NCBI GenBank assembly: GCA_031178585.1
Contig: JAPSIT010000009.1
Location: 1-36,553, forward strand
Reading direction: 5' to 3'
DNA length: 36,553 bases
Source: Arthrobacter sp.
GTDB lineage: Bacteria; Actinomycetota; Actinomycetes; Actinomycetales; Micrococcaceae
This document shows positions 13,100-22,601 of the stretch, piece by piece. The translations under genes were made by a program, and so were the position numbers. The notes beneath the pieces were generated by a model. That model was not told the origin of the DNA. It worked only from the letters and a program-made list of their open reading frames with translations, and ran no database searches. Numbering within the stretch: position 1 is the stretch's first letter; each line of letters opens with the position of its first letter.

Positions 13100-14341
13100 C
13101 TAGGCAGCGTCCTCCTCGGACGCCTCGTCCAACTCCCGCACGCTCTGAGCCCGCTCCTGCAGTTCAGGTGCGGAAACGGCGCGGGGAGTGACCTGAACCG
13201 CGGACGGGGCGGCAAGGCCGGCGGCGTCGAGGGCATTGAGTTTCCGCGCGGTTGGCAAGACACGCGCTTCCAGCGTGCCGACCATCGAGTTGTACCGGTC
13301 CACCGACGTTTTCAGGGAGGACCCCAGCTTGCTGACATTCTCACCGAGGGTGCCCATGCGCTCATAGAGCTGCCGGGCCAGCTCGAACAGTTCACGCGCA
13401 CTGTCGGTCAGCACGTCCTGCCGCCACGTGAACGCAACGGACTTCAGCACGGCCAGCAGAGTGCCGGGTGACGCAAGCACTACGTTCTTGGAAAGGGCGT
13501 GGTCCAAGAGCCCCGGATCAGCGGAGAGGGCGGCCGCGAGGATGGACTCGGCCGGCAGGAAGCAGATGACCAGCTCGGGCGAGTTGCCTGAGATGTCCCA
13601 GTACTTCTTATTGCTCAGGGCGTCGACGTGGGACTTGAGTGCTTTGGCATGGGCTGCCAGCAGGGCCTGCTGGGTGGAACGGCTCCCGGCATTGTCGGGG
13701 TCAGTCTGGCCAAGGTCCTGGGCCTCAAGGTAGGAGGACAGCGGCACCTTCGCGTCAACCACCAGCTGCTTGTCCCCTGGCAGCTGGACCACCAGATCCG
13801 GACGGACGGAAGCATCAGTACCCGGGCTGTGCAGCTGTTCGTAGAAGTCCACATGACGGAGCATCCCGGCCGCTTCCACCACCCTGCGTAGCTGGACTTC
13901 GCCCCATTGGCCGCGGGCGCTGTTCGAGCGAAGGGCCGCTTCGAGGGCGTGCGTGGATCTCATGAGCTGCTGGTCAGAGAGCCTGGCCTCCTGCAGTTGC
14001 TGAGCGAGCTGCCCGTACTGTTCCAGCCGGTCGCGTTCCAGGAGGGAAACCTGCTGCTGGACCGCGCTGAGTTTCTCGGCCACCGGAGCCAAAGCACGCA
14101 GAACGCTGCCGTCCTGCTGGCGTGATTCCCCGAGTTCCCGGTTTTGCGCCGCCAGCAGCCTCCGCTCGGCTTCGGCTGCGGCGTATTGCGCGCTGACCTC
14201 CGAGAGCCGTGCCGAGACGCCGTCGAAATCCGCCTCGAGCGCCACATTGCGGCGTCGCATGACCACATACGCGAAGGCCGCCCCCGCCAAGGCGCCGAGC
14301 AGCAGCATCAGGAGGGCCAAAATCAGTGCAAAAGAATCCAT
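13100..14341 (-). CDS. rmuC: DNA recombination protein RmuC homologue
   Basis: The 413-residue protein has an N-terminal membrane anchor (about residues 5-26, ending AYVVMRRR). A long coiled-coil region rich in Ala, Glu and Gln follows (about 35-125). The conserved RmuC core then begins with ARGQWGEVQLRRVVEAAGM and RPDLVVQLPGDKQLVVDAKVPLSSYLEA, the latter being a PD-(D/E)XK-like nuclease motif. ELVICFLPAESILAAAL is also typical. RmuC limits rearrangements at inverted repeats in E. coli; its biochemical activity is not established. The length is normal. The start is ATG at 14341. It diverges from ychF with about 165 bases between them. Confidence 0.92.
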   Translation of the reverse strand: MDSFALILALLMLLLGALAGAAFAYVVMRRRNVALEADFDGVSARLSEVSAQYAAAEAERRLLAAQNRELGESRQQDGSVLRALAPVAEKLSAVQQQVSLLERDRLEQYGQLAQQLQEARLSDQQLMRSTHALEAALRSNSARGQWGEVQLRRVVEAAGMLRHVDFYEQLHSPGTDASVRPDLVVQLPGDKQLVVDAKVPLSSYLEAQDLGQTDPDNAGSRSTQQALLAAHAKALKSHVDALSNKKYWDISGNSPELVICFLPAESILAAALSADPGLLDHALSKNVVLASPGTLLAVLKSVAFTWRQDVLTDSARELFELARQLYERMGTLGENVSKLGSSLKTSVDRYNSMVGTLEARVLPTARKLNALDAAGLAAPSAVQVTPRAVSAPELQERAQSVRELDEASEEDAA

Positions 14342-14494: not shown

Positions 14495-14500
14495 TAGAAT
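14495..14500 (+). promoter_or_regulatory. -10 box candidate immediately before ychF
   Basis: TAGAAT ends 8 nt before the GTG start codon at 14509. No Shine-Dalgarno sequence is present. A leaderless or near-leaderless ychF mRNA would result. No convincing -35 element was found. Confidence 0.4.
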
Positions 14501-14508
14501 TGTTGTCC

Positions 14509-15594
14509 GTGGCTCTTACTATTGGCATCGTCGGACTGCCCAACGTCGGCAAATCAACCCTTTTCAACGCACTGACCCGGAACCAGGTGCTGGCGGCGAA
14601 CTATCCGTTCGCCACCATCGAACCGAATGTCGGCGTCGTCAACCTGCCCGACTCCAGGCTTCAGGAGCTGGCCGGAATCTTCGGATCGCAGCGGGTGCTT
14701 CCGGCAGCTGTGTCGTTCGTGGACATCGCTGGCATCGTCAAGGGCGCGTCCGAAGGAGAAGGGCTGGGTAACCAGTTCCTCGCCAACATCCGTGAAGCGG
14801 AAGCCATCGCCGAAGTGGTGCGCGTCTTCGACGATCCCGACGTTATCCACGTGGACGGCAAGGTTGATCCCCGCTCGGACATGGAAACCATCAACACCGA
14901 GTTGATCCTCGCCGATCTGCAGACCATCGAGAAGGCAATTCCCCGGATCGAAAAAGAAGTCAAGATCAAGAAGCGGGAAGCCGCGGAACTCGCAGCCATC
15001 AAGGCAGCGCAGGCCGTGCTGGAACGCGGGGACACCATCTACTCCTCCATCAAGAGCGACAAGCTGGAGATGGAGCACCTGAAGGAACTCAGCCTCCTGA
15101 CCGCCAAGCCCTTCATCTATGTCTTTAACGCGGACGAAGGAATTCTCGGCAGCCCCGAGAAGCAGGCCGAGCTGCGAGCCATGGTTGCACCCGCCGACTG
15201 CATCTTCCTCGATGCCAAGCTTGAGGCCGACCTCGTCGAGCTGGATGAGGCCGAGGCCCGCGAGATGCTCGAAATGAACGGTCAGGATGAGTCGGGCCTG
15301 GACCAGCTGGCCCGCGTTGGGTTCCACACGCTAGGGCTGCAGACCTACCTCACGGCCGGCCCCAAGGAAGCCCGGGCCTGGACCATCCGCCAGGGGGACA
15401 CTGCGCCGCAGGCGGCCGGTGTCATCCACTCGGACTTTCAGCGCGGCTTCATCAAGGCCGAGGTGGTTTCCTTCGAAGATCTGGTCGAGGCCGGATCCAT
15501 GGCGGAAGCAAAGTCCCGCGGCAAGGTCCGTATTGAAGGCAAGGAATATGTAATGGCCGACGGCGATGTCGTCGAGTTCCGCTTCAACGTGTGA
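14509..15594 (+). CDS. ychF: Ribosome-associated ATPase/GTPase YchF (Obg family)
   Basis: The product has 361 residues from GTG 14509, exactly the family norm, starting (M)[16 protein letters not shown] with the P-loop at residues 9-17. A TTG at 14500 would add three residues and is not preferred. Further motifs are the [11 protein letters not shown] segment, [21 protein letters not shown] (G3 region), and the ATP-specific NADE in place of NKxD. The C-terminal TGS domain ends in VEFRFNV. YchF binds ribosomes and prefers ATP. The gene is complete, but its last 19 bases are the left copy of a direct repeat found again at 20112-20130. This marks the 3' end as an integration target, with the coding sequence preserved. 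Confidence 0.95.
15576..15594 (+). repeat. attL candidate within the ychF 3' end
   Basis: GTTCCGCTTCAACGTGTGA encodes the end of YchF (FRFNV stop). The first 15 bases and the final TGA recur at 20112-20130. It lies next to the integrase remnant. Confidence 0.8.
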
Positions 15595-15625
15595 GCAGGC
15601 CGTTTTTCCCGCATAAACACTGGGT

Positions 15626-15913
15626 TTAGGCCCCGGCAGTCCGCACAGAGTCCGCAGGAATCCCAAGAGCTTCGTTCATCATCGCTCCGGCTGCGGACCT
15701 TGTGCGGTCTTCTGCTGTCGGCCACAGGTGCGCATAAGTGTTCAGTGTCGTGGTTGCCTTGGAGTGGCCCAGGGCCCGCTGCACGGTCACGACGTCGCAC
15801 CCGGCAGCGATGAGCCCCGAGGCGTAGAAGTGCCTCAAGTCGTGGAGCTTCACGCCCGAGAGGCCGGCGGCCTTGACGGTCTTCCGCCACCAGTGGCCCA
15901 CGGTGTTCTGGTG
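15626..15913 (-). pseudogene. Tyrosine recombinase (integrase), C-terminal remnant
   Basis: About 96 residues of a phage-type tyrosine recombinase remain. The catalytic box II is intact: HDLRHFYAS holds the His and Arg, LGHSKATTTLNTY holds the second His and the nucleophilic Tyr. The box I Arg, the core-binding domain and the arm-binding domain are missing, whereas intact integrases of this type have roughly 350-400 residues. Homology ends near HQNTVGHWW (about 15913). The bases beyond it belong to another decayed gene on the opposite strand, so a deletion removed the 5' half. A 12-codon in-frame extension to ATG 15949 is antisense to that gene. The fragment ends 31 nt from the att core, the typical place for an integrase. 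Confidence 0.85.
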
Positions 15914-16568
15914 GGGAGGCAGGCCGCCATCACCGAGGACACCGCCCAAGCAGCCCAGGCCCTCAAAGACGCGCTAAACCGCAACCTCGCCAGGGCGATG
16001 ACCCGCAGCATTCCCCGGTTTGTCGAGCAGGCAGCGGAAGACCTCGAACCAACCTTTGAGAAGCTCGCAAAGGAATTGGCTACCGCGCGGCCCGGAAGCT
16101 CCCGCCACACGCCCCGCTCGACATGGCAGCGAACGTAGAAGCGGACACCGCAAAGGAATACAAGCAGGCCCGCGGTATCCTCGCCCAGCTCGGCGTCTAC
16201 GCCGCCCTCTACAAGCAGCCCACGCCCAACTGCGAACCGCCCGCACTGCTGTCCATCCTGCCATCGTGTCCCTGCCCGTGGCTGTGGTGGAGCAGACACA
16301 GGGCACACGCAACTACACGCCCATCACCATCAATGAGCGGGAGTTGGCCGGCACACGGGCTATGCGTGCGCTCGGCATCGCAGCCAAGGACGACATTGAC
16401 GCTGCGCTTGTCGCCGTTGCTCGCGGCGACTTCGAAGGCATCACATTGAACCTCGCAACGCCAACAGAACATGTAGAGCGAACAGAACATGTAGAGCGCC
16501 GCAAGCAGGCAGCAGCAGCACACCAGCGCCAGGAAGTCCTAAAAGCAGGCGGAGTCCACGTCCTCTAA
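15914..16568 (+). pseudogene. Frame-broken phage-type gene of unknown function
   Basis: Protein-like sequence runs through three frames in succession. Frame one (to about 16077) reads ITEDTAQAAQALKDALNRN and then FVEQAAEDLEPTFEKLAKEL. Frame two (16078 to about 16250) continues GYRAARKLPPHAPLD and then NVEADTAKEYKQARGILAQL. Frame three (about 16260 to the stop at 16566-16568) reads IVSLPVAVVEQTQGTRNYTP, then NERELAGTRAMRALGIAAKD, and ends GGVHVL. Each part looks like soluble helical protein with smooth joins, so one gene of about 215 codons with at least two frameshifts is likely. No start is visible; the 5' end abuts the integrase deletion point. I do not recognise the family. Confidence 0.6.
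16463..16498 (+). repeat. Perfect 18-bp tandem duplication
   Basis: AACAGAACATGTAGAGCG occurs at 16463-16480 and again at 16481-16498 with no gap and no mismatch. It lies inside the third-frame part of the broken gene and encodes TEHVER twice. The perfect identity points to a recent slippage event in an otherwise decayed gene. Confidence 0.85.
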
Positions 16569-16864
16569 ACAGACAGTAACGGTGATGGCGGGGGTCGGTT
16601 CCACAAGATGGCGACCTGGCTCCGCCGCACCACCAAACGGACGGCTAAGGGGTACGCCCGAAGTCCCTTCCCCCGCCCCCGCTTCGCACCTCCTGCATTG
16701 CGCAATTTGATACCCGGTCCCGAATAACGGGCCCTTGGGTGCCTCTGACTGGCTTATGGCGGCGTTTCTGGGCCTCAGGGGCGGGGTTTGAACGGCGAGT
16801 TAATCGGGCCTATTTCGGGCTTCGTAGATCGGCTCCTGCGGGGGCCTCTTGAAAGGAAGATGTG

Positions 16865-16998
16865 ATGTCAGATAGTGAATCGGCTACGACCCGAGGGGCT
16901 TGAAGGCGGCCGGGCGGAAGCTTTGGGACGCTGGAACGGAAGAGTATGAATGGGCCGACCACGAGTTAGCGATCCTTGAGGAAGCTTGCCGGATATAA
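16865..16998 (+). pseudogene. Small terminase subunit (P27-like) N-terminal remnant
   Basis: An ATG at 16865 preceded by AAAGGAAG opens MSDSESATTRGA and stops at 16901. Shifting frame at the C-run near 16889-16892 restores PRGLKAAGRKLWDAG and then EYEWADHELAILEEACRI before a stop at 16996. The PRGL-x-AAG-x-x-LW start and the DEL/HEL-A-x-LE helix are typical of P27-family phage small terminases. Adding one C to the CCC run gives a continuous reading TTPRGLKAAG, so a single-base deletion explains the break. The reconstructed protein has about 44 residues, under half the usual length; the rest is lost or unrecognisable. The 296 bases before it (16569-16864) hold no gene; G- and C-rich runs there could be an old packaging region, but I see no proof. 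Confidence 0.6.
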
Positions 16999-17083
16999 CT
17001 GAAGAACACGGAGAACGGGCCCGCGGGTCTACATAATTCGTGGTGTCCCAACAAAAGTGCCCCGCTCTTCGTCATAACGGACG

Positions 17084-17116
17084 AGGAGCCCCGCAGGCAG
17101 TGACCGCGGGGCTCCT
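17084..17116. terminator. Hairpin terminator after the nuclease gene
   Basis: AGGAGCCCCGC (17084-17094) pairs perfectly with GCGGGGCTCCT (17106-17116) around an 11-nt loop. It lies 21 nt beyond the stop of the minus-strand nuclease gene and could work in both directions. Confidence 0.75.
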
Positions 17117-17137
17117 AAAGTTGGCGCAGGAGCGTTC

Positions 17138-17866
17138 TTACACCTTGGTGACTGTAAGCGTGACGTTGGGGCAGGCATTAGCCCAACGAGTCAGCGCCGC
17201 CTTTTCCACACTGTCGACCCGCAGGCCCCACCTGATCTTCACGGCAACCCACTCGGCGATGTAAGTGCACCTGAAGGCCTTTGCCGGCGGGAGCCATGCT
17301 TCCGGTCCCTTGGCCTGCTTAGAGGCATTGAGTGCGGAGGTCTGGGCATTGAGCGTGCGTGAGTCTCCCAGGTCGTTGTAGAAGGCAACGCGGCGCGCTT
17401 GGGTCCAAAAGCGCGCTCCCGAGCCCCATGCCTCGGCCACGGGCACTAGGTGGTCGATCTGGACCGTGGTGGGCGATGTGTGCACCCGGTTGTCCCATGT
17501 GGTGACCCATCGTCCTTTGGTGACGGTGCACCCGCGGCTGCTGTACGTTGGCCGCACTTTGGATTCCCAGACCAGTACTTCGTGCCGCGTGTTCTGGCAG
17601 TCCCTGTTGGCATCGTTCCAGACGCCGAAGTAGCGGTTCCGATCGTATCCTGCATTGTTCTCCGCCTGAACCGTTAGGGCTCGCACGGCGGTCCGCAGCG
17701 GTGCCTTGTACACAGTTGCTGCCTCCGCGGGGACGGAGAGTCCTGTCATCAGCAGACCGGCGACAATGCCGGAAGCGGCGGCGGTGCGACCGAGCAGGTG
17801 GGCACTGCGCGGCCTAGTGGTGAGAAGTGCTTTGATGCGGGCGTACCTAGAAGGCTGGGCGTGCAT
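17138..17866 (-). CDS. Secreted HNH-type nuclease (GmrSD C-terminal/DUF1524-like)
   Basis: The 242-residue protein has an N-terminal signal peptide: a basic start, a hydrophobic core near residues 28-45 (ASGIVAGLLMTGLSVP) and a likely cleavage after AEA. The mature domain contains YDRNRYFGVWNDANRDCQNTRHEVL, here cited in part, then QIDHLVPVAEAWGSGA with the HNH-type Asp-His pair. NDLGDSRTLNAQTSALNASK follows with the Asn and the NASKQAKGPEAWLPP end of the ββα-metal motif. This architecture is common in actinobacterial exported nucleases. The substrate is presumably extracellular DNA. GGGGGA precedes the ATG at 17866. It is the longest intact gene within the decayed element, so it may have been retained for its own benefit. 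Confidence 0.85.
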   Translation of the reverse strand: MHAQPSRYARIKALLTTRPRSAHLLGRTAAASGIVAGLLMTGLSVPAEAATVYKAPLRTAVRALTVQAENNAGYDRNRYFGVWNDANRDCQNTRHEVLVWESKVRPTYSSRGCTVTKGRWVTTWDNRVHTSPTTVQIDHLVPVAEAWGSGARFWTQARRVAFYNDLGDSRTLNAQTSALNASKQAKGPEAWLPPAKAFRCTYIAEWVAVKIRWGLRVDSVEKAALTRWANACPNVTLTVTKV

Positions 17867-18042
17867 GGGTCCCCCATATGGGTATAGAAAGTTTCAGCTT
17901 GAGATACGAGCGTCCACGAATTGTCCCATGTCCATTCAACTGACAAAGCAAGTTCGCTGCCCTGTTACGATCCAATGTCTCACCCACCACTTACTGTCCA
18001 CGAGATGGTGAAGATGGACTTGAATTCGGTGGTGCGGCTGCT

Positions 18043-18435
18043 GTGCAGGCAGGGCGAGCGGCGCGGATATATTGGCCCCATGCCCGCCTTTACCCTTGCC
18101 GGCTCTCGTATGACTACCTTGCACCAGAGTTCGAGGGCGTTCGGGACGACGTTCGGTCGTGGGAGTACGGGCAGTGGCCGCGGGTTGAGGCGGCAGTTCC
18201 CCTGGTGGATCGCAGGACCGTGAACGTCTACGGAGAAGCTATGCGCTGGGGGCACGGACTCATTCTTACGCGCTGGCGAGACGACGAAGGCCACATGCAC
18301 TCAGCATGGCTTCCGAAAGAATCCGTTCGCAGGCTCACAGCGTCAGAGTGGGACATCATCGCCTACCACCAGTGCCCGCCCGAACTCCGCTCCATCCAAG
18401 GGGGGAAGCGCCTGCCCGGGTTCCTGCCCGAGTAG
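18043..18435 (+). CDS. Hypothetical protein
   Basis: I do not recognise this 130-residue product. It looks coding: RWRDDEGHMHSAWLPKESV and TASEWDIIAYHQCPPELRSI have balanced composition with many Trp, Tyr and acidic residues, unlike a shadow frame. There are no membrane segments or signal peptide. The GTG at 18043 has no clear ribosome binding site, and the first 15 residues are less convincing, so the true start may be elsewhere or an upstream frameshift may have removed it (the alternative frame reads VRLLCRQGERRGYIG just before). It diverges from the nuclease gene across about 175 bases and ends 4 bases before a hairpin at 18439, a likely terminator. Confidence 0.5.
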   Translation: MQAGRAARIYWPHARLYPCRLSYDYLAPEFEGVRDDVRSWEYGQWPRVEAAVPLVDRRTVNVYGEAMRWGHGLILTRWRDDEGHMHSAWLPKESVRRLTASEWDIIAYHQCPPELRSIQGGKRLPGFLPE

Positions 18436-18438
18436 GGC

Positions 18439-18511
18439 GGTGGCCCGCTCCGAGTTGGGGTTTGGAGCGGGGCACCTACCGAAGCCGCAGAAAGCGTGCG
18501 TCGTTACGGCA
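18439..18511 (+). repeat. Repeated hairpin element, family A copy 1
   Basis: A 13-bp stem with one mismatch pairs 18439-18451 (GGTGGCCCGCTCC) with 18464-18476. It is followed by a conserved tail TACCGAAGCCGCAGAA and on to about 18511. A second, diverged copy lies at 18975. This copy begins 4 nt after the stop of the hypothetical gene, so it could serve as its terminator. Confidence 0.7.
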
Positions 18512-18693
18512 TCGGATGCACCGGAGTATACGTACGGCAAATCAAGAGACTCCTTACAGCAAGTTGGCATTTTAGATGCGCCTGCTTGGGCATTGGGAAG
18601 GAACCACTCCAAGGAGCCCGAGGGTATTCCCAAGGTGGAAGTTATCAGCTTGCAGCAGGTAGAACATCCCCCCAATGGGCTACCGCCGCTAGA

Positions 18694-18729
18694 GTGTCTC
18701 CGCCCTACCCCCCATGAGGGCGGAGACAC
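18694..18729. terminator. Perfect 13-bp hairpin
   Basis: GTGTCTCCGCCCT (18694-18706) pairs with AGGGCGGAGACAC (18717-18729) around a 10-nt loop, followed by TTTCT. No gene ends here, so it must serve an unrecognised transcript or be a structural element. Confidence 0.65.
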
Positions 18730-18743
18730 TTTCTGTCCAACAC

Positions 18744-18783
18744 AAAAGCGCCTTCGGCCCCACATGAGGCCAGGGGCGCTTTT
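18744..18783. terminator. Second hairpin with A-run and T-run flanks
   Basis: AAAAGCGCC (18744-18752) pairs with GGCGCTTTT (18775-18783). The inner loop contains GGCC and GGCC that can extend the structure. The A-rich and T-rich arms make it a candidate bidirectional intrinsic terminator, 14 nt after the previous hairpin. Confidence 0.65.
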
Positions 18784-18820
18784 GGTTCGACACGCAGCAG
18801 GAATCGCCGGATTTGAAAAC

Positions 18821-18833
18821 TAAGCATGCTGAC
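18821..18833. repeat. TAAGCATGCTGAC repeat, copy 1
   Basis: The 13-mer TAAGCATGCTGAC centred on the palindrome GCATGC recurs at 19089-19101. This copy sits in the loop of an AAAACT/AGTTTT inverted repeat (18816-18821 with 18837-18842). It may be an operator-like site. Confidence 0.5.
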
Positions 18834-18887
18834 GATAGTTTTATGCCAGTGTTGCCGCGGCCCCCAATTCGTGTCGGCGCTGACCTA

Positions 18888-18928
18888 GAAGAACCCCTGC
18901 AACGCCAGATTCGTAGCGGGGGTTCTTC
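18888..18928. terminator. Repeated hairpin element, family C copy 1
   Basis: GAAGAACCCCTGC (18888-18900) pairs with GCGGGGGTTCTTC (18916-18928), 13 bp with one G-U pair. Flanking bases GACC before and GCTGTC after are shared with the hairpin at 20275-20310, so the two are related. Confidence 0.7.
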
Positions 18929-18974
18929 GCTGTCTGGTGGGGATGCGCCCCCCGGACCCCTGCCTGGCTAGGCC

Positions 18975-19049
18975 GGTGGCCCGCCCCCCCAATTGCGAGT
19001 AAGAGCGGGCCACCTACCGAAGCCGCAGAAGGCGTGCATCGTTGCGGCA
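18975..19049 (+). repeat. Repeated hairpin element, family A copy 2
   Basis: A perfect 10-bp stem pairs 18975-18984 (GGTGGCCCGC) with 19005-19014. The tail TACCGAAGCCGCAGAA and its extension match copy 1 with few differences, while the loop differs. The rest of 19050-19354 holds no gene I can support. Confidence 0.7.
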
Positions 19050-19088
19050 ACGGTAAACGGATGATACGCGATCGACCCTGTTGATTGA

Positions 19089-19101
19089 TAAGCATGCTGA
19101 C
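19089..19101. repeat. TAAGCATGCTGAC repeat, copy 2
   Basis: Identical 13-mer to 18821-18833, here between TTGAT and TATTAG. It lies about 250 nt upstream of the excisionase remnant. Confidence 0.5.
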
Positions 19102-19354
19102 TATTAGTGTGGGCATAGGCAGGGAACCTTTACTGATGCAGCCCGGACGGGGTTCTCTGTCTGATGTTTGGTCTGGACCGAGGCTGCAATCGAACTTCCA
19201 GGGGCGAGGGGTTTCTTGGTGAGTCTCCCCTTCCCCAGTGCCCGCCCCGTGGCGGGACGGAAGAGCCCCGGACCACTTGGGAGCTCCAGCCCCCGCCTTC
19301 TCGCGTGGAGGAACATAATAGTGCCGGACTGCGGGCGGGAATAGCATCGGCATC

Positions 19355-19586
19355 ATGACTCAGGATGTGACGTACCCCACGCTGACCAAGCCCAAACTTG
19401 CCTACAACTTTGAGGAAGCCGCGGAGACTACCGGGCATAGCACGGATACCCTCCGGCGAGCTATCCGCGCCAACGGCCTGACCGCAAGGTACGCCGAGCA
19501 AGCCAGTGCTTCTCGCGAGCGAACTCGAATCCTGGTTGAATGCGCTCCCAAGCGAACCGCCGGCAGCGCGGCAGCTCGGCCGATGA
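19355..19586 (+). pseudogene. Excisionase-like helix-turn-helix protein, frameshifted
   Basis: The first 46 codons read YPTLTKPKLAYNFEEAAETT and GHSTDTLRRAIRANGLTARY, a MerR-like (HTH_17) DNA-binding domain typical of phage excisionases. The frame then shifts near 19488-19492. In the next frame GTPSKPVLLASELESWLNAL and PSEPPAARQLGR run to a TGA at 19584-19586. The SKPVLLA-x-ELE-x-WL segment is the usual C-terminal strand and helix of this family, so the two parts belong together. Total length is about 76 residues, normal for Xis. An indel is the simple explanation; programmed frameshifting is less likely. A 27-codon ORF in the third frame (19540-19623, ending WWAVLERDPFA) overlaps the end and may be a remnant of a following gene. 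Confidence 0.7.
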
Positions 19587-19664
19587 ATGGTGGGCAGTGC
19601 TCGAGCGGGACCCGTTCGCCTGAATGGCCGCGGGCGCAATCGGGCGAAAGCACGGCCGACCTCC

Positions 19665-19949
19665 TTACTGGTATGGCGCCCAGTCTTGGCGGGAAGACTG
19701 GGTCCGCACGGGAAGCGCGTCGATCTTCACCAGCGCCCGGTGCACGGCCACCACAAGCAGGATGAGCCCGATAAACGAAACCAGGCCGCCGAGAGCTGTC
19801 AGGCCGATGAACGCTCCGCTCATGCCGTTATCCCTCAGTGAAGCAAAGGACCAGGTGCCAAAGGTTGCGCCAATGAGGCTCAGCAGAGGCCCCGCGAACG
19901 TCAGGGTAACGCCGGCCACGAAGACACCGGCTGAACGCTTGAATTGCAT
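19665..19949 (-). CDS. Small two-helix membrane protein of unknown function
   Basis: The 94-residue product has two clear membrane segments, near residues 8-28 (VFVAGVTLTFAGPLLSLIGA) and 47-70 (FIGLTALGGLVSFIGLILLVV). A basic, soluble C-terminus follows. The ATG at 19949 is preceded on the minus strand by GGGGGAAAG, a good ribosome binding site; longer readings to 20069 lack such support. No family is recognised. It lies inside the decayed element between the excisionase remnant and attR and is oriented opposite to the excisionase. Such small membrane proteins are common in actinobacterial prophage regions, where some act in exclusion or lysis, but nothing here shows that. Confidence 0.6.
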   Translation of the reverse strand: MQFKRSAGVFVAGVTLTFAGPLLSLIGATFGTWSFASLRDNGMSGAFIGLTALGGLVSFIGLILLVVAVHRALVKIDALPVRTQSSRQDWAPYQ

Positions 19950-20111
19950 ATCTTTCCCCCGTGAAAGTGCGAACAACTTCGCACAGAGTATCCTGCCCAG
20001 TCCGCGGAAAGTCCGCAAAGTGCCACTTACGGGCAGTCTTGCCCAACACCCCAAACCCCTAGAATTCAAGGCGAACAGAACCAGCCAAGAATGTGCGGGT
20101 TAATAAGGCAC

Positions 20112-20130
20112 GTTCCGCTTCAACGTTTGA
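20112..20130 (+). repeat. attR candidate: displaced ychF 3' end
   Basis: GTTCCGCTTCAACGTTTGA matches the ychF end at 15576-15594 with a single G-to-T change. It still reads FRFNV stop (GTT instead of GTG for Val). The preceding bases are unlike ychF, so it is not a duplicated gene end but a displaced one. Confidence 0.8.
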
Positions 20131-20237
20131 CCAGACGCTTCAGCGCCTATCGGAGAAGCGTCATTCCCGACCTGTCCCTGGCTGCCGGCTGGACGGATTT
20201 GGACCCTAAGCACACTTTCTAATACCTTGGTTCAGGC

Positions 20238-20265
20238 GCCTCCTTGTTCCCCCAATCAAGGAGGC
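20238..20265. terminator. Hairpin downstream of attR
   Basis: GCCTCCTTG (20238-20246) pairs perfectly with CAAGGAGGC (20257-20265). It lies about 110 nt beyond the displaced ychF end, so it could have been part of the original ychF terminator region before the insertion. Confidence 0.55.
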
Positions 20266-20274
20266 TTCGACCAG

Positions 20275-20310
20275 AAGAACCCCCGCGGCCACAAGCCTGC
20301 GGGGGTTCTT
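20275..20310. terminator. Repeated hairpin element, family C copy 2
   Basis: AAGAACCCCCGC (20275-20286) pairs perfectly with GCGGGGGTTCTT (20299-20310), followed by TGCTGTC. It is related in stem and flanks to the hairpin at 18888-18928 and lies just outside attR. Confidence 0.75.
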
Positions 20311-20812
20311 TGCTGTCCGCGCCGACATAGCGGTGAGGCTACGGGCCAGGAAGTCATACGGAGCCGGCCCCAGTTGCCGCAGGAGAGACCGTGGAGCCGA
20401 CCCGTTACGGCAGCGCCCCCCAAGCGAAGACCACGTGCAAGCCTTCCCCCAATGGGATGACGGGCACTCCCACGTCAAGCGTAGGCAGGAGTGATGAACC
20501 CCGGCAACAGGTAAATGCTGCGCAGCCTTCCTTTCCGTTTTAGTGATTGAGGATTAACAAGCAATAGCCCTGGTCCCTTGGCGAGGCGCTTCTGTTGTGA
20601 TTGGTGCCCGCAGCCATGGACCTGTTTTCCCGGGACGCGGCATGCTAGGTTGCATCTCGATAACAACCTTTACTGAGGGGCAACTTTCGGGCCGCAGGCA
20701 CGGCGCGCGGGTCTAGGCTACTTCCCATGTGAGACATGCCACATGCTCACTGGGGGATGTGGCTGTCTGGTCGGCGTCTTCAACGGCGGTCCTTTCCACA
20801 ATAAAGAGACAT
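20311..20812. other. Gene-free stretch upstream of the peptide transporter
   Basis: About 500 bases between the hairpin at 20275 and the ribosome binding site of the peptide-binding protein contain no gene I can support. One notable site is the inverted repeat CATGTG (20726-20731) with CACATG (20740-20745), spaced 8 nt, about 80 nt before the start codon. It could be an operator for the transporter. TAGGTT at 20646 and TAGGCT at 20714 are possible -10 boxes without good -35 partners. Confidence 0.4.
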
Positions 20813-20822
20813 AGGAGGCGGA

Positions 20823-22601
20823 ATGCGATTCAGTCGTATTTCCAAAGCAGTAGGCGTCGCCGCGGCAGCGGCGCTGGCACTCAGCGCCTGCGCAAGCACC
20901 AACACCGGGACAACCCCGACAAGCAACGCGGCCGGCAAGCAGGGCGGCACAGCCACCGTGGTCGAGGTGAATGCGTTCAACACGTTCAACCCCAACACAG
21001 CCGACGGCAACACTGACATCAACTCCAAAATCAGCTACGCAACGCACTCCGGCTTCTACTACATCGACAACCAGCTCAACATCGTCCGGAATGAAAAGTT
21101 CGGCAAGATGGAAAAGACCTCTGACGATCCGCTGACCGTCAAGTACACCATCAATGAAGGCGTGAAGTGGTCGGACGGCACCCCCGTCACGGCGGCTGAC
21201 CTCCTCCTTCAGTGGGCAGCTTTCTCCGGGTACTACAACGACGCCGATGCGGACGGCAAAGCAGGAACGTCGTACTTCTCGTACGCCGGGGACCCGACGG
21301 GCCTCGCACTCACCGACTTCCCGGAGATCGGCGACGACAACCGATCCATGACGCTGAAATACTCCAAGCCGTTCGCCGACTGGGAGATCGCACTCGGCGG
21401 GCCCGGCATCGACATCCCGGCGCACATCCTGGCAAAGAAGGCCGGCATGGCCGACACCCAGGAGTTCATCGACCACCTCAAGAAACTGCCGCGCGGTGAC
21501 GCCAAGTCACCCAAGCCGGCAGACAGCAAGCTCAAGGCCATGTCCGATTTCTGGAACACCGGCTTCGACACCAAGACCCTGCCCAGCGACCCGACCCTCT
21601 TCCTGTCCAACGGCCCGTTCATTGTCAAGAGCGTGAACCAGGACCAGTCCCTGACCATGGTCAGGAACAAGGACTACAACTGGGGCCCCGAACCGAAGCT
21701 CGACGAAATCACCGTCCGCTACATCGGCTCGGCACCGGCACAGGTCCAGGCACTGAAGAACGGCGAAGCGGACATCATCGCTCCGCAGGCCTCCGCCGAC
21801 ACGCTCGAGCAGCTCAAGGCACTCGAGAGCCAGGGCGTCACGGTGGAACAGGGCAACCAGCTGTCCTACGACCACATTGACCTGAACTTTTACGGAGTAT
21901 TCGCCGACAAGAACGTCCGCGAAGCATTCCTGAAGACGGTTCCCCGCAAGGACATCGTGGACAAGATCGTCAAGAAGCTGGATCCGGAAGCCAAGCCGCT
22001 TGATTCGCAGCTGTTCGTTCCGGCCCAGCCCGCCTACGCGGACACCGTGAAGGAAAACGGCTCGGCCGCCTACCAGGATGTTGACATTGACGGAGCCAAG
22101 AAGCTGCTCGCCGGCAAGACTCCGGAAATCCGCATCATGTACAACAAGGACAACCCGAACCGCGTGGATGCCTTCTCCCTGGTCCGTGAATCTGCCACCC
22201 AGGCAGGCTTCAAGATCGTCGACGGCGGCCTCGGCGGCTCCGACTGGGGCAAGGCGCTGGGCAAGGGCGGCTACGACGCCACCATCTTCGGCTGGATCAA
22301 CCCGGGCGTCGGCGTCTCCGGCGTACCGCAGATCTTCCGCACGGGCAACGGGTCCAACTTCAACAAGTTCAGCGATCCTGAGGCCGACAAGCTGATGGAC
22401 GAGCTCATCGTGACGACGGACCGCGGCAAGCAGGACGAGCTCACCAGGCAGATCGACCAGAAGATCTGGGCTTCCTCCTACGGTCTCCCGCTGTTCCAGT
22501 CGATCGGCGTGGATGCCTACAGCGACCGGATCACCGGCGTGAAGTTCATGCCTAACCAGACGGGTGTCTGGTGGAACTTCTGGGAGTGGGCCGAGAAGTA
22601 A
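20823..22601 (+). CDS. Peptide-type ABC transporter substrate-binding lipoprotein (SBP family 5)
   Basis: The 592-residue protein has a lipoprotein signal peptide with lipobox LSAC and Cys23 as the lipidation site. The SBP_bac_5 fold is shown by VKYTINEGVKWSDGTPVTAADL (quoted in part, about residues 103-124), the classic hallmark of Opp/Dpp/nickel binding proteins. Further on are VRYIGSAPAQVQALKNGEAD and the VREAFLKTVPRKDIVDKIV region. It captures oligo- or dipeptides, or another family ligand, outside the membrane. AGGAGGCGGA directly precedes the ATG, an excellent ribosome binding site. A hairpin at 22634-22666 separates it from the permease gene, probably so that the binding protein is made in excess. 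Confidence 0.92.
   Translation: MRFSRISKAVGVAAAAALALSACASTNTGTTPTSNAAGKQGGTATVVEVNAFNTFNPNTADGNTDINSKISYATHSGFYYIDNQLNIVRNEKFGKMEKTSDDPLTVKYTINEGVKWSDGTPVTAADLLLQWAAFSGYYNDADADGKAGTSYFSYAGDPTGLALTDFPEIGDDNRSMTLKYSKPFADWEIALGGPGIDIPAHILAKKAGMADTQEFIDHLKKLPRGDAKSPKPADSKLKAMSDFWNTGFDTKTLPSDPTLFLSNGPFIVKSVNQDQSLTMVRNKDYNWGPEPKLDEITVRYIGSAPAQVQALKNGEADIIAPQASADTLEQLKALESQGVTVEQGNQLSYDHIDLNFYGVFADKNVREAFLKTVPRKDIVDKIVKKLDPEAKPLDSQLFVPAQPAYADTVKENGSAAYQDVDIDGAKKLLAGKTPEIRIMYNKDNPNRVDAFSLVRESATQAGFKIVDGGLGGSDWGKALGKGGYDATIFGWINPGVGVSGVPQIFRTGNGSNFNKFSDPEADKLMDELIVTTDRGKQDELTRQIDQKIWASSYGLPLFQSIGVDAYSDRITGVKFMPNQTGVWWNFWEWAEK

Follow-up and report, generated by a model that had tools for sequence, protein, structure and literature searches.

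An integrase remnant between two copies of the ychF 3' end

We analysed a 36,553-nt stretch of Arthrobacter sp. DNA (assembly GCA_031178585.1, contig JAPSIT010000009.1; hereafter the window), in which an initial annotation had described a decayed integrative element of ~4.5 kb targeting the 3' end of ychF. The target gene, which encodes a redox-regulated ATPase/Obg-family GTPase, lies on the forward strand (14500..15594); its open frame is listed from a TTG at 14500, and the true start is probably the GTG at 14509. The product matches YchF-GTPase_C (E 4.1e-39) and is up to 98% identical to named YchF proteins of the Arthrobacter group. Using repeat and pattern searches, we assigned the final ychF codons, GTTCCGCTTCAACGTGTGA, together with the following GCAG as the core of the left attachment site (attL; 15576..15598, forward strand), and a displaced copy of the sequence encoding FRFNV and a stop codon (FRFNV-stop) as the core of the right attachment site (attR; 20112..20134, forward strand). 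The two cores are identical at 21 of 23 nt, 15 of them consecutive, which extends the 19-nt repeat (18 of 19 identical) described initially, and translation confirms that both copies retain the FRFNV-stop sense. No tRNA gene was detected in the window by ARAGORN, and the att direct repeats derive from the end of the target gene, as in islands that use gene 3' ends.

A degenerate pattern for this ending, TTYMGNTTYAAYGTNTRR, matches the window without mismatch only at the repeat pair. With up to two mismatches, a single extra match appears at 20533 (expectation from shuffled sequences at this tolerance, 0.14), which we rejected as a third att site because it overlaps ordinary host flank. In first-order Markov simulations of 15599-20900 (n=400), the best 23-mer match reached 13-17 of 23 positions and an exact 15-mer never occurred, in agreement with the earlier argument that a chance match of 15 bases is very unlikely. 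Short repeats can in general arise by duplication, and so the second copy might be a product of chance or of segmental duplication of the ychF end without a site-specific recombinase; no computed result favours duplication here, and given the simulations and the fact that related integrases of several genera lie next to these same 18 nt, we regard this origin as having a negligible probability.

Immediately inside attL, the reverse strand encodes a C-terminal fragment of a tyrosine integrase (15626..15949), the C-terminus of which points toward ychF and of which 97 residues align to a 368-aa relative. The fragment matches positions 106-168 of the 172-position Phage_integrase profile (E 7.6e-13) and a PHROG integrase family (E 1.2e-18), and its amino acid identity is 88.7% to the integrase of a related genome, G287, and 92.5% to an integrase fragment in a second genome, G346. 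In the window and in five relatives (L113, L115, L033, L116, and L135), the core is separated by 34-36 nt from the last residue of the integrase that aligns, the spacing being 34 nt in the window, L113, and L033, and 35 nt in L115. An integrase gene next to one att site is present as a fragment in the window and at near full length in L113 (G287), L116 (G300), L033, L056, and L061; the profile match and these same-site relatives uphold the integrase remnant that had been annotated.

Related elements with integrases at the same site

When window positions 15600-20900 were searched against 395 genomes of the family, 236 gave some match, mostly to the flank or to the nuclease gene described below. 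In G287 and G346, a stretch matching the integrase fragment adjoins ychF (81% and 82% nucleotide identity, respectively). The attR arm of the window (19999..20112, forward strand; TTAATAAGGCACG / TATATAAGGTACG / TAAATAAGGTACG ahead of the core) is common to the G287 element and partly to that of G346; over 19999-20130 its nucleotide identity to G287 is 72%, and in G287 this distal arm lies 27.4 kb away from the integrase stretch. The elements at ychF measure 27.4 kb in G287 (apparently intact), 4.7 kb in G346 (integrase truncated), and 11.6 kb in G300, and full-length integrases are encoded at the site in G287 (368 aa), in G300 (369 aa), and in a 3.6-kb element of Amycolatopsis acididurans (418 aa), such that elements with full integrases, as predicted initially for other genomes, do exist. 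The cargo of the G287 element includes proteins resembling type I methylase, specificity, and restriction subunits, as well as a cyclase, an E1-E2 protein, and a JAB/SAVED/TIR protein resembling those of cyclic-oligonucleotide-based antiphage signalling systems (CBASS); we read the latter genes as CBASS-like.

In a tree of 49 integrase rows, the window fragment groups with L115, L113, and L091 (support 98/97), all of which lie beside the site. The rows comprise 14 labelled ychF type 1, six labelled type 2, and 29 with neither label; on the tree, type 1 requires six changes, three of them forced. For example, no such site adjoins the integrases of L117-L126, L128, L130, L131, and L158-L161, although those of L158-L161 are 60-65% identical to the G287 integrase. 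A single origin of ychF targeting was considered, and the six label changes and these close relatives without a site weigh against it. Separately, type 2 integrases, which are distant from type 1, lie 132-159 nt before an FRFNV-stop site in six loci on viral contigs of IMG/VR (L134, L140, L145, L150, L153, and L157); one of these (L150) and the ychF locus L149 are parts of one 56-kb contig.

Searched against phages at a threshold of 1e-10, the G287 integrase matched 914 records, all below 60% identity and the 15 listed at no more than 31.5%. The L033 integrase at 1e-20 and the L150 type 2 integrase at 1e-40 had no phage match, and the G287 integrase had no plasmid match at 1e-30.

The distal boundary and empty sites

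Uninterrupted strains had been predicted to join the ychF end directly to sequence like that from 20131 onward. In two empty-site relatives (L005 and L008), the ychF stop codon is followed by ~19 nt and then by a conserved stretch leading toward a gene for a substrate-binding protein, which the window joins near 20540; six further relatives (L178-L183) have the same layout with ~18-30 nt between stop and flank, whereas a seventh, L184, has no site and was excluded from the flank alignment. Empty sites are seen, but the conserved host flank (20539..20822, forward strand) resumes ~400 nt past attR. Because the empty-site flank meets the window near 20540 rather than 20131, the ~400 nt between attR and the flank (20135..20538), which are absent from the empty-site relatives, are extra DNA. 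Thus, the ~4.5-kb span bracketed by the repeat stands, while the placement of host flank right after 20130 does not. Positions 20131-20560 had no match in phages. We suggest that 20135-20538 probably stems from an earlier tandem insertion at this site that has decayed further. In Arthrobacter sp. ISL-28 (L002), a second copy lies at 14190, and a decayed copy reading FRFNI lies at 15276, where it precedes the flank by 18 nt, the spacing of the intact ychF end in empty-site genomes. This genome shows two further insertions plus the decayed copy, and we propose such a pattern for the window, although no ancestral copy can be recognised there.

A probable decayed integrative island at the end of ychF

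We interpret 15576-20134 as the decayed remnant of an integrative island formed at the ychF 3' end by a tyrosine integrase, and assign this interpretation a probability of roughly 0.9. It is carried by the repeat, the integrase fragment, the matching attR arm, the full integrases at the same gene and the empty sites in relatives, and the tandem stacks described below. We envision that the tyrosine integrase encoded beside attL recombined the attP site of the island with the ychF 3' end, by which the old ychF end would have been pushed to the far side as attR; ychF would have kept its C-terminus, as the core brought in by the island also encoded FRFNV-stop. The island would afterwards have lost most of the integrase and of the cargo frames, and 20135-20538 would be the leftover of an earlier insertion. 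Because the ychF end would be regenerated at each insertion, elements could stack in tandem.

Several observations weigh against this interpretation. At the DNA level, the window element shares with that of G287 no more than the C-terminal part of the integrase and ~130 nt of distal arm, the rest of the window element having no match in it, and the integrase of G346 is likewise truncated. The ancestral flank starts near 20540 instead of 20131, with no clear displaced ychF end there, and the empty sites come from relatives and not from the window's own species. Moreover, because it combines a phage-related gene with a nuclease gene that has relatives elsewhere, the content of the element is a mosaic. 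As for the initial annotation as a whole, the repeat, the integrase remnant, and the nuclease stand, the excisionase is weak, and the small terminase and the distal boundary were not confirmed; its interpretation as a decayed island, with full-integrase relatives and empty sites, holds, but the direct flank junction at 20131 and the rarity of the target do not.

Multiple FRFNV-stop ends are frequent in actinobacteria

Among 80 ychF loci of the genome_contigs set, a second copy of the ending was found within the fetched stretch in 10 (up to two mismatches; weak in L077), a count in which copies could be missed at several loci where the automatic stop finder misplaced the ychF end (e.g. L017, L021, L053, and L070). 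Fourteen whole genomes, nine of them chosen for a second copy already seen, gave 33 pattern matches, in each genome on one contig and one strand within ~17 kb, and none in the reversed control. We then counted matches in larger sets, with family and class inferred from a named centre genome, genome counts made by hand from tables, and positional counts referring to the listed genomes only. In the family of Pseudarthrobacter enclensis (presumably Micrococcaceae and probably also the family of the window; n=295), 283 genomes have a match, 119 at least two, and 28 at least four (reversed control, six matches); matches fall on both strands in eight of the 119 multi-match genomes, and in 29 of the 32 listed ones all matches share a contig and a strand and span no more than 28 kb, the exceptions being G119, G171, and G111. 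In the class of Amycolatopsis acididurans (n=345), 317 genomes have a match and 47 at least two (control, three matches), with 15 of the 17 listed multi-match genomes so clustered (G512 and G613 are not). The use of the ychF 3' end, initially regarded as unusual, is thus not rare, and we conclude that it is a recurrent docking site in actinobacteria. What is unusual is that a protein gene serves as the stacking site, often for intervals without an integrase.

Arrays of short intervals downstream of ychF

We fetched 20 array regions, picked among the listed multi-match genomes. In 16 of them ychF lies just upstream of the first site, and in L088, L089, L091, and L092 no ychF is present within the stretch. 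The arrays comprise 50 intervals of 542-12,316 nt (median ~1.7 kb) in one orientation, with genes on either strand; in Arthrobacter castelli (L013 and L081), nine sites lie within 17 kb. The sites share an upstream arm with the consensus AGAgGTT.tTcGGcTACGGAACGTGGTgGAG. In a search by this arm alone, 38 of 48 array matches were followed by an exact FRFNV-stop, two were shifted by one codon, and eight were other sequences (unrelated or decayed), with 11 ychF ends counted apart, where ychF was within the fetched stretch, and three matches on the other strand without FRFNV-stop. Third codon positions are near evenly mixed among the 38 copies (first codon, C in 19 and T in 19).

Because integrase-less arrays of this type are common in the same family and the window's integrase is broken, we also considered whether the copy at 20112 is the end of an array-type cassette (class II), with the integrase fragment as unrelated debris. 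However, the array arm AGAgGTT.tTcGGcTACGGAACGTGGTgGAG is missing from the window attR, whose arm is that of the elements with an integrase in G287 and G346, and we consider this alternative very unlikely. Comparison of four near-identical copies within the arrays shows a constant sequence from TTTAATGT on at the left junction and up to GGAACGTGGT at the right one, and exchange therefore probably occurs within the ten positions between TTTAATGT and GGAACGTGGT. In some arrays (L024, L081, and L094), a second core-like copy (about TTCCNGTTCAACNTCTGG) lies a few nt past the stop codon. By eye, many L081-L100 intervals open with what resembles a hairpin directly after the stop codon; such a structure might terminate ychF transcription.

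One 1166-nt cassette occurs in seven of the 295 family genomes at 96-100% identity, always at an array site and once second in order. It is 94.8-99.9% identical between genomes whose ychF genes are 90-98% identical, and is more alike than ychF in 19 of 21 genome pairs (two of these by less than 0.02%); in the other two pairs ychF is more alike. These two pairs and the two near-equal ones argue against a cassette moving apart from its hosts. The 1166-bp cassette had no match in plasmids, and no array-type site (exact 32-nt pattern) was found in viral contigs. Other intervals recur in different places, for instance between L084 and Janibacter (L100; 77.6% identity over 2,084 nt).

Cargo of the arrays and the search for a recombinase

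To characterise the cargo, 101 array proteins, a non-redundant choice of the longer frames, were scanned with Pfam and PADLOC models. Matches include PifA, DrmD, TmtA, PIN domains, and Abi_2, and L014 encodes a TIR-NB-ARC-TPR protein. The intervals also carry ordinary metabolic genes (DUF3090, GCV_T, and short-chain dehydrogenases) and many proteins without a family; the metabolic genes speak against counting all intervals as mobile cassettes. Because 25 of 93 and 25 of 67 families were listed and longer frames selected, these scans leave room for a recombinase.

In 19 genomes searched for tyrosine recombinases of PF00589 (E up to 0.001), 15 with and four without arrays, coordinates placed none within the arrays of the 15 array genomes. 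Five of these 15 (G244, G225, G130, G159, and G008) encode just two PF00589 proteins, presumably XerC and XerD. Serine resolvases of PF00239 are absent from two of 13 array genomes (G298 and G305) and, therefore, are not the common array enzyme. A tblastn search of the 20 fetched arrays for related integrases recovered only one remnant, in L091. Hairpin folding of the sites in the manner of attC was examined and found no support: for 45 sites, eight of which are ychF ends themselves, the mean DNA folding z score over 100 nt was -0.04 with none below -2 (mononucleotide shuffles), and for the core only it was -0.45 with three of 45 below -2.

Comparison with known systems

The nearest described kind of system is found in Dehalococcoides, where tandem islands occupy the ssrA (tmRNA) 3' end. 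Each island is bounded by a copy of the gene end, and a 15-bp motif lies upstream of the copies but not in the target gene; an integration module was described for 16 islands and is lacking from 15 others, the latter read as possible cis-mobilizable elements and accretion (PMC3146451). Stacking downstream of one gene, copies of its 3' end, an upstream motif, and units with and without integrase are common to both systems. They differ in that an RNA gene is targeted and a serine recombinase used at ssrA, as opposed to a protein gene and tyrosine integrases at ychF, in that most ychF copies still encode FRFNV-stop with mixed third positions, and in intervals down to 0.5 kb.

Accretion of integrative and conjugative elements and cis-mobilizable elements, reportedly described by Pavlovic in 2004, resembles our observations in that elements insert one behind another at a single att site and integrase modules are lost, and differs from them in that no PF00589 match lies inside the arrays of 15 genomes. 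Integron cassettes are short and uniformly oriented, and each terminates in a foldable recombination site (attC), with an integron integrase beside the array. The ychF arrays share with them the short one-orientation units, the site at each end, and some units common to genomes in different order; unlike integrons, they have no integrase inside the arrays of the 15 genomes checked, no strong folding of the sites, and genes on either strand. The absence of an integron-type integrase from the arrays concerns these 15 relatives, as the window itself is without an array. Tentatively, and at somewhat less than even odds, we propose that actinobacteria use the ychF 3' end as the fixed point of entry into an integron-like cassette system, in which integrase-less cassettes, often with defence-like cargo, would be inserted by a recombinase acting in trans (host XerC/XerD or the integrase of a passing island) and in which the site would stay readable as the ychF C-terminus, each insertion giving a new synonymous ending.

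The dif (pdif) modules of Acinetobacter reportedly depend on host XerC/XerD. Some carry toxin-antitoxin genes, and they undergo rearrangement at short sites that they have in common (PMC13141974). They are plasmid-borne and of C and D module types, whereas the ychF sites lie on the chromosome and most of them point the same way. For a Streptococcus pneumoniae prophage, attB lies upstream of ychF, in its promoter region, and integration alters ychF expression (PMC6375853, PMC8637289); the ychF neighbourhood is thus used by a phage integrase there as well, but in our case it is the 3' coding end that serves as target and is preserved. The ychF passages of PMC5726852, PMC8460829, and PMC13046425 deal with phylogeny or belong to a gene list, and PMC12884075 does not mention ychF. 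In the literature searched, with most subscription papers outside reach, we found no report of the ychF 3' end as an integration target.

Altogether, mobile DNA stacks up at a conserved gene end in many actinobacteria. Because a single, simple 18-nt pattern suffices to locate these regions, the arrays offer a pool of accessory genes that can be searched directly and that includes several defence-like ones. The missing recombinase raises the testable question of how integrase-less cassettes enter a coding gene without harm. In genome annotation, an insertion may be signalled by a ychF gene whose FRFNV end is recoded and AT-rich.

Other content between the repeats

Beyond the integrase fragment, the element carries a GmrSD_C (HNH-type) nuclease gene (17138..17866, reverse strand; open 242-aa frame, E 2.4e-8), which confirms the nuclease annotated initially. 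Its DNA relatives occur in family genomes and on six Micrococcus plasmids; because they do so, and because in G004 and G022 they lie on a contig other than that of ychF, the nuclease gene may be independent cargo.

A 130-aa frame (18043..18435, forward strand) is related at the DNA level to a hypothetical Arthrobacter phage gene: window positions 18005-18460 match 51 phage records, the listed ones at 67-72% nucleotide identity, and in the one phage examined the relative lies near helix-turn-helix (HTH) and integrase genes. Farther along, an HTH-like fragment (19355..19489, forward strand) is a possible remnant of the excisionase annotated initially, an identity that is weak (PHROG excisionase, E 0.011 over 45 aa; phrog_664, DNA-binding, E 5.8e-4 over 76 aa). 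Both features would suit a decayed prophage rather than an island. However, no phage structural or packaging family was matched among the chosen window frames, a scan that did not include every short frame, and the closest full element, that of G287, carries restriction-modification and CBASS-like genes, with none of its 10 proteins tested matching a PHROG named structural. We therefore consider a prophage improbable and retain the integrative island.

The frame-broken coding remnants at 15929..16565 (forward strand) had been read as a small terminase. This was not borne out, as the three pieces matched no PHROG terminase family and the two outer pieces, searched without the middle one, matched none of 50,697 phage records. 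For a 134-aa frame (19665..20069, reverse strand), Pfam-type and PHROG scans found no family. Within the decayed frame at 15929-16565, an 18-nt unit occurs twice head to tail at 16460-16495 (94% alike). Finally, a segment of ~100 nt is duplicated within 18415..19053 (forward strand), its copies at 18415-18515 and 18951-19053 being ~536 nt apart and 78-82% alike, and inverted repeats lie near this duplication.

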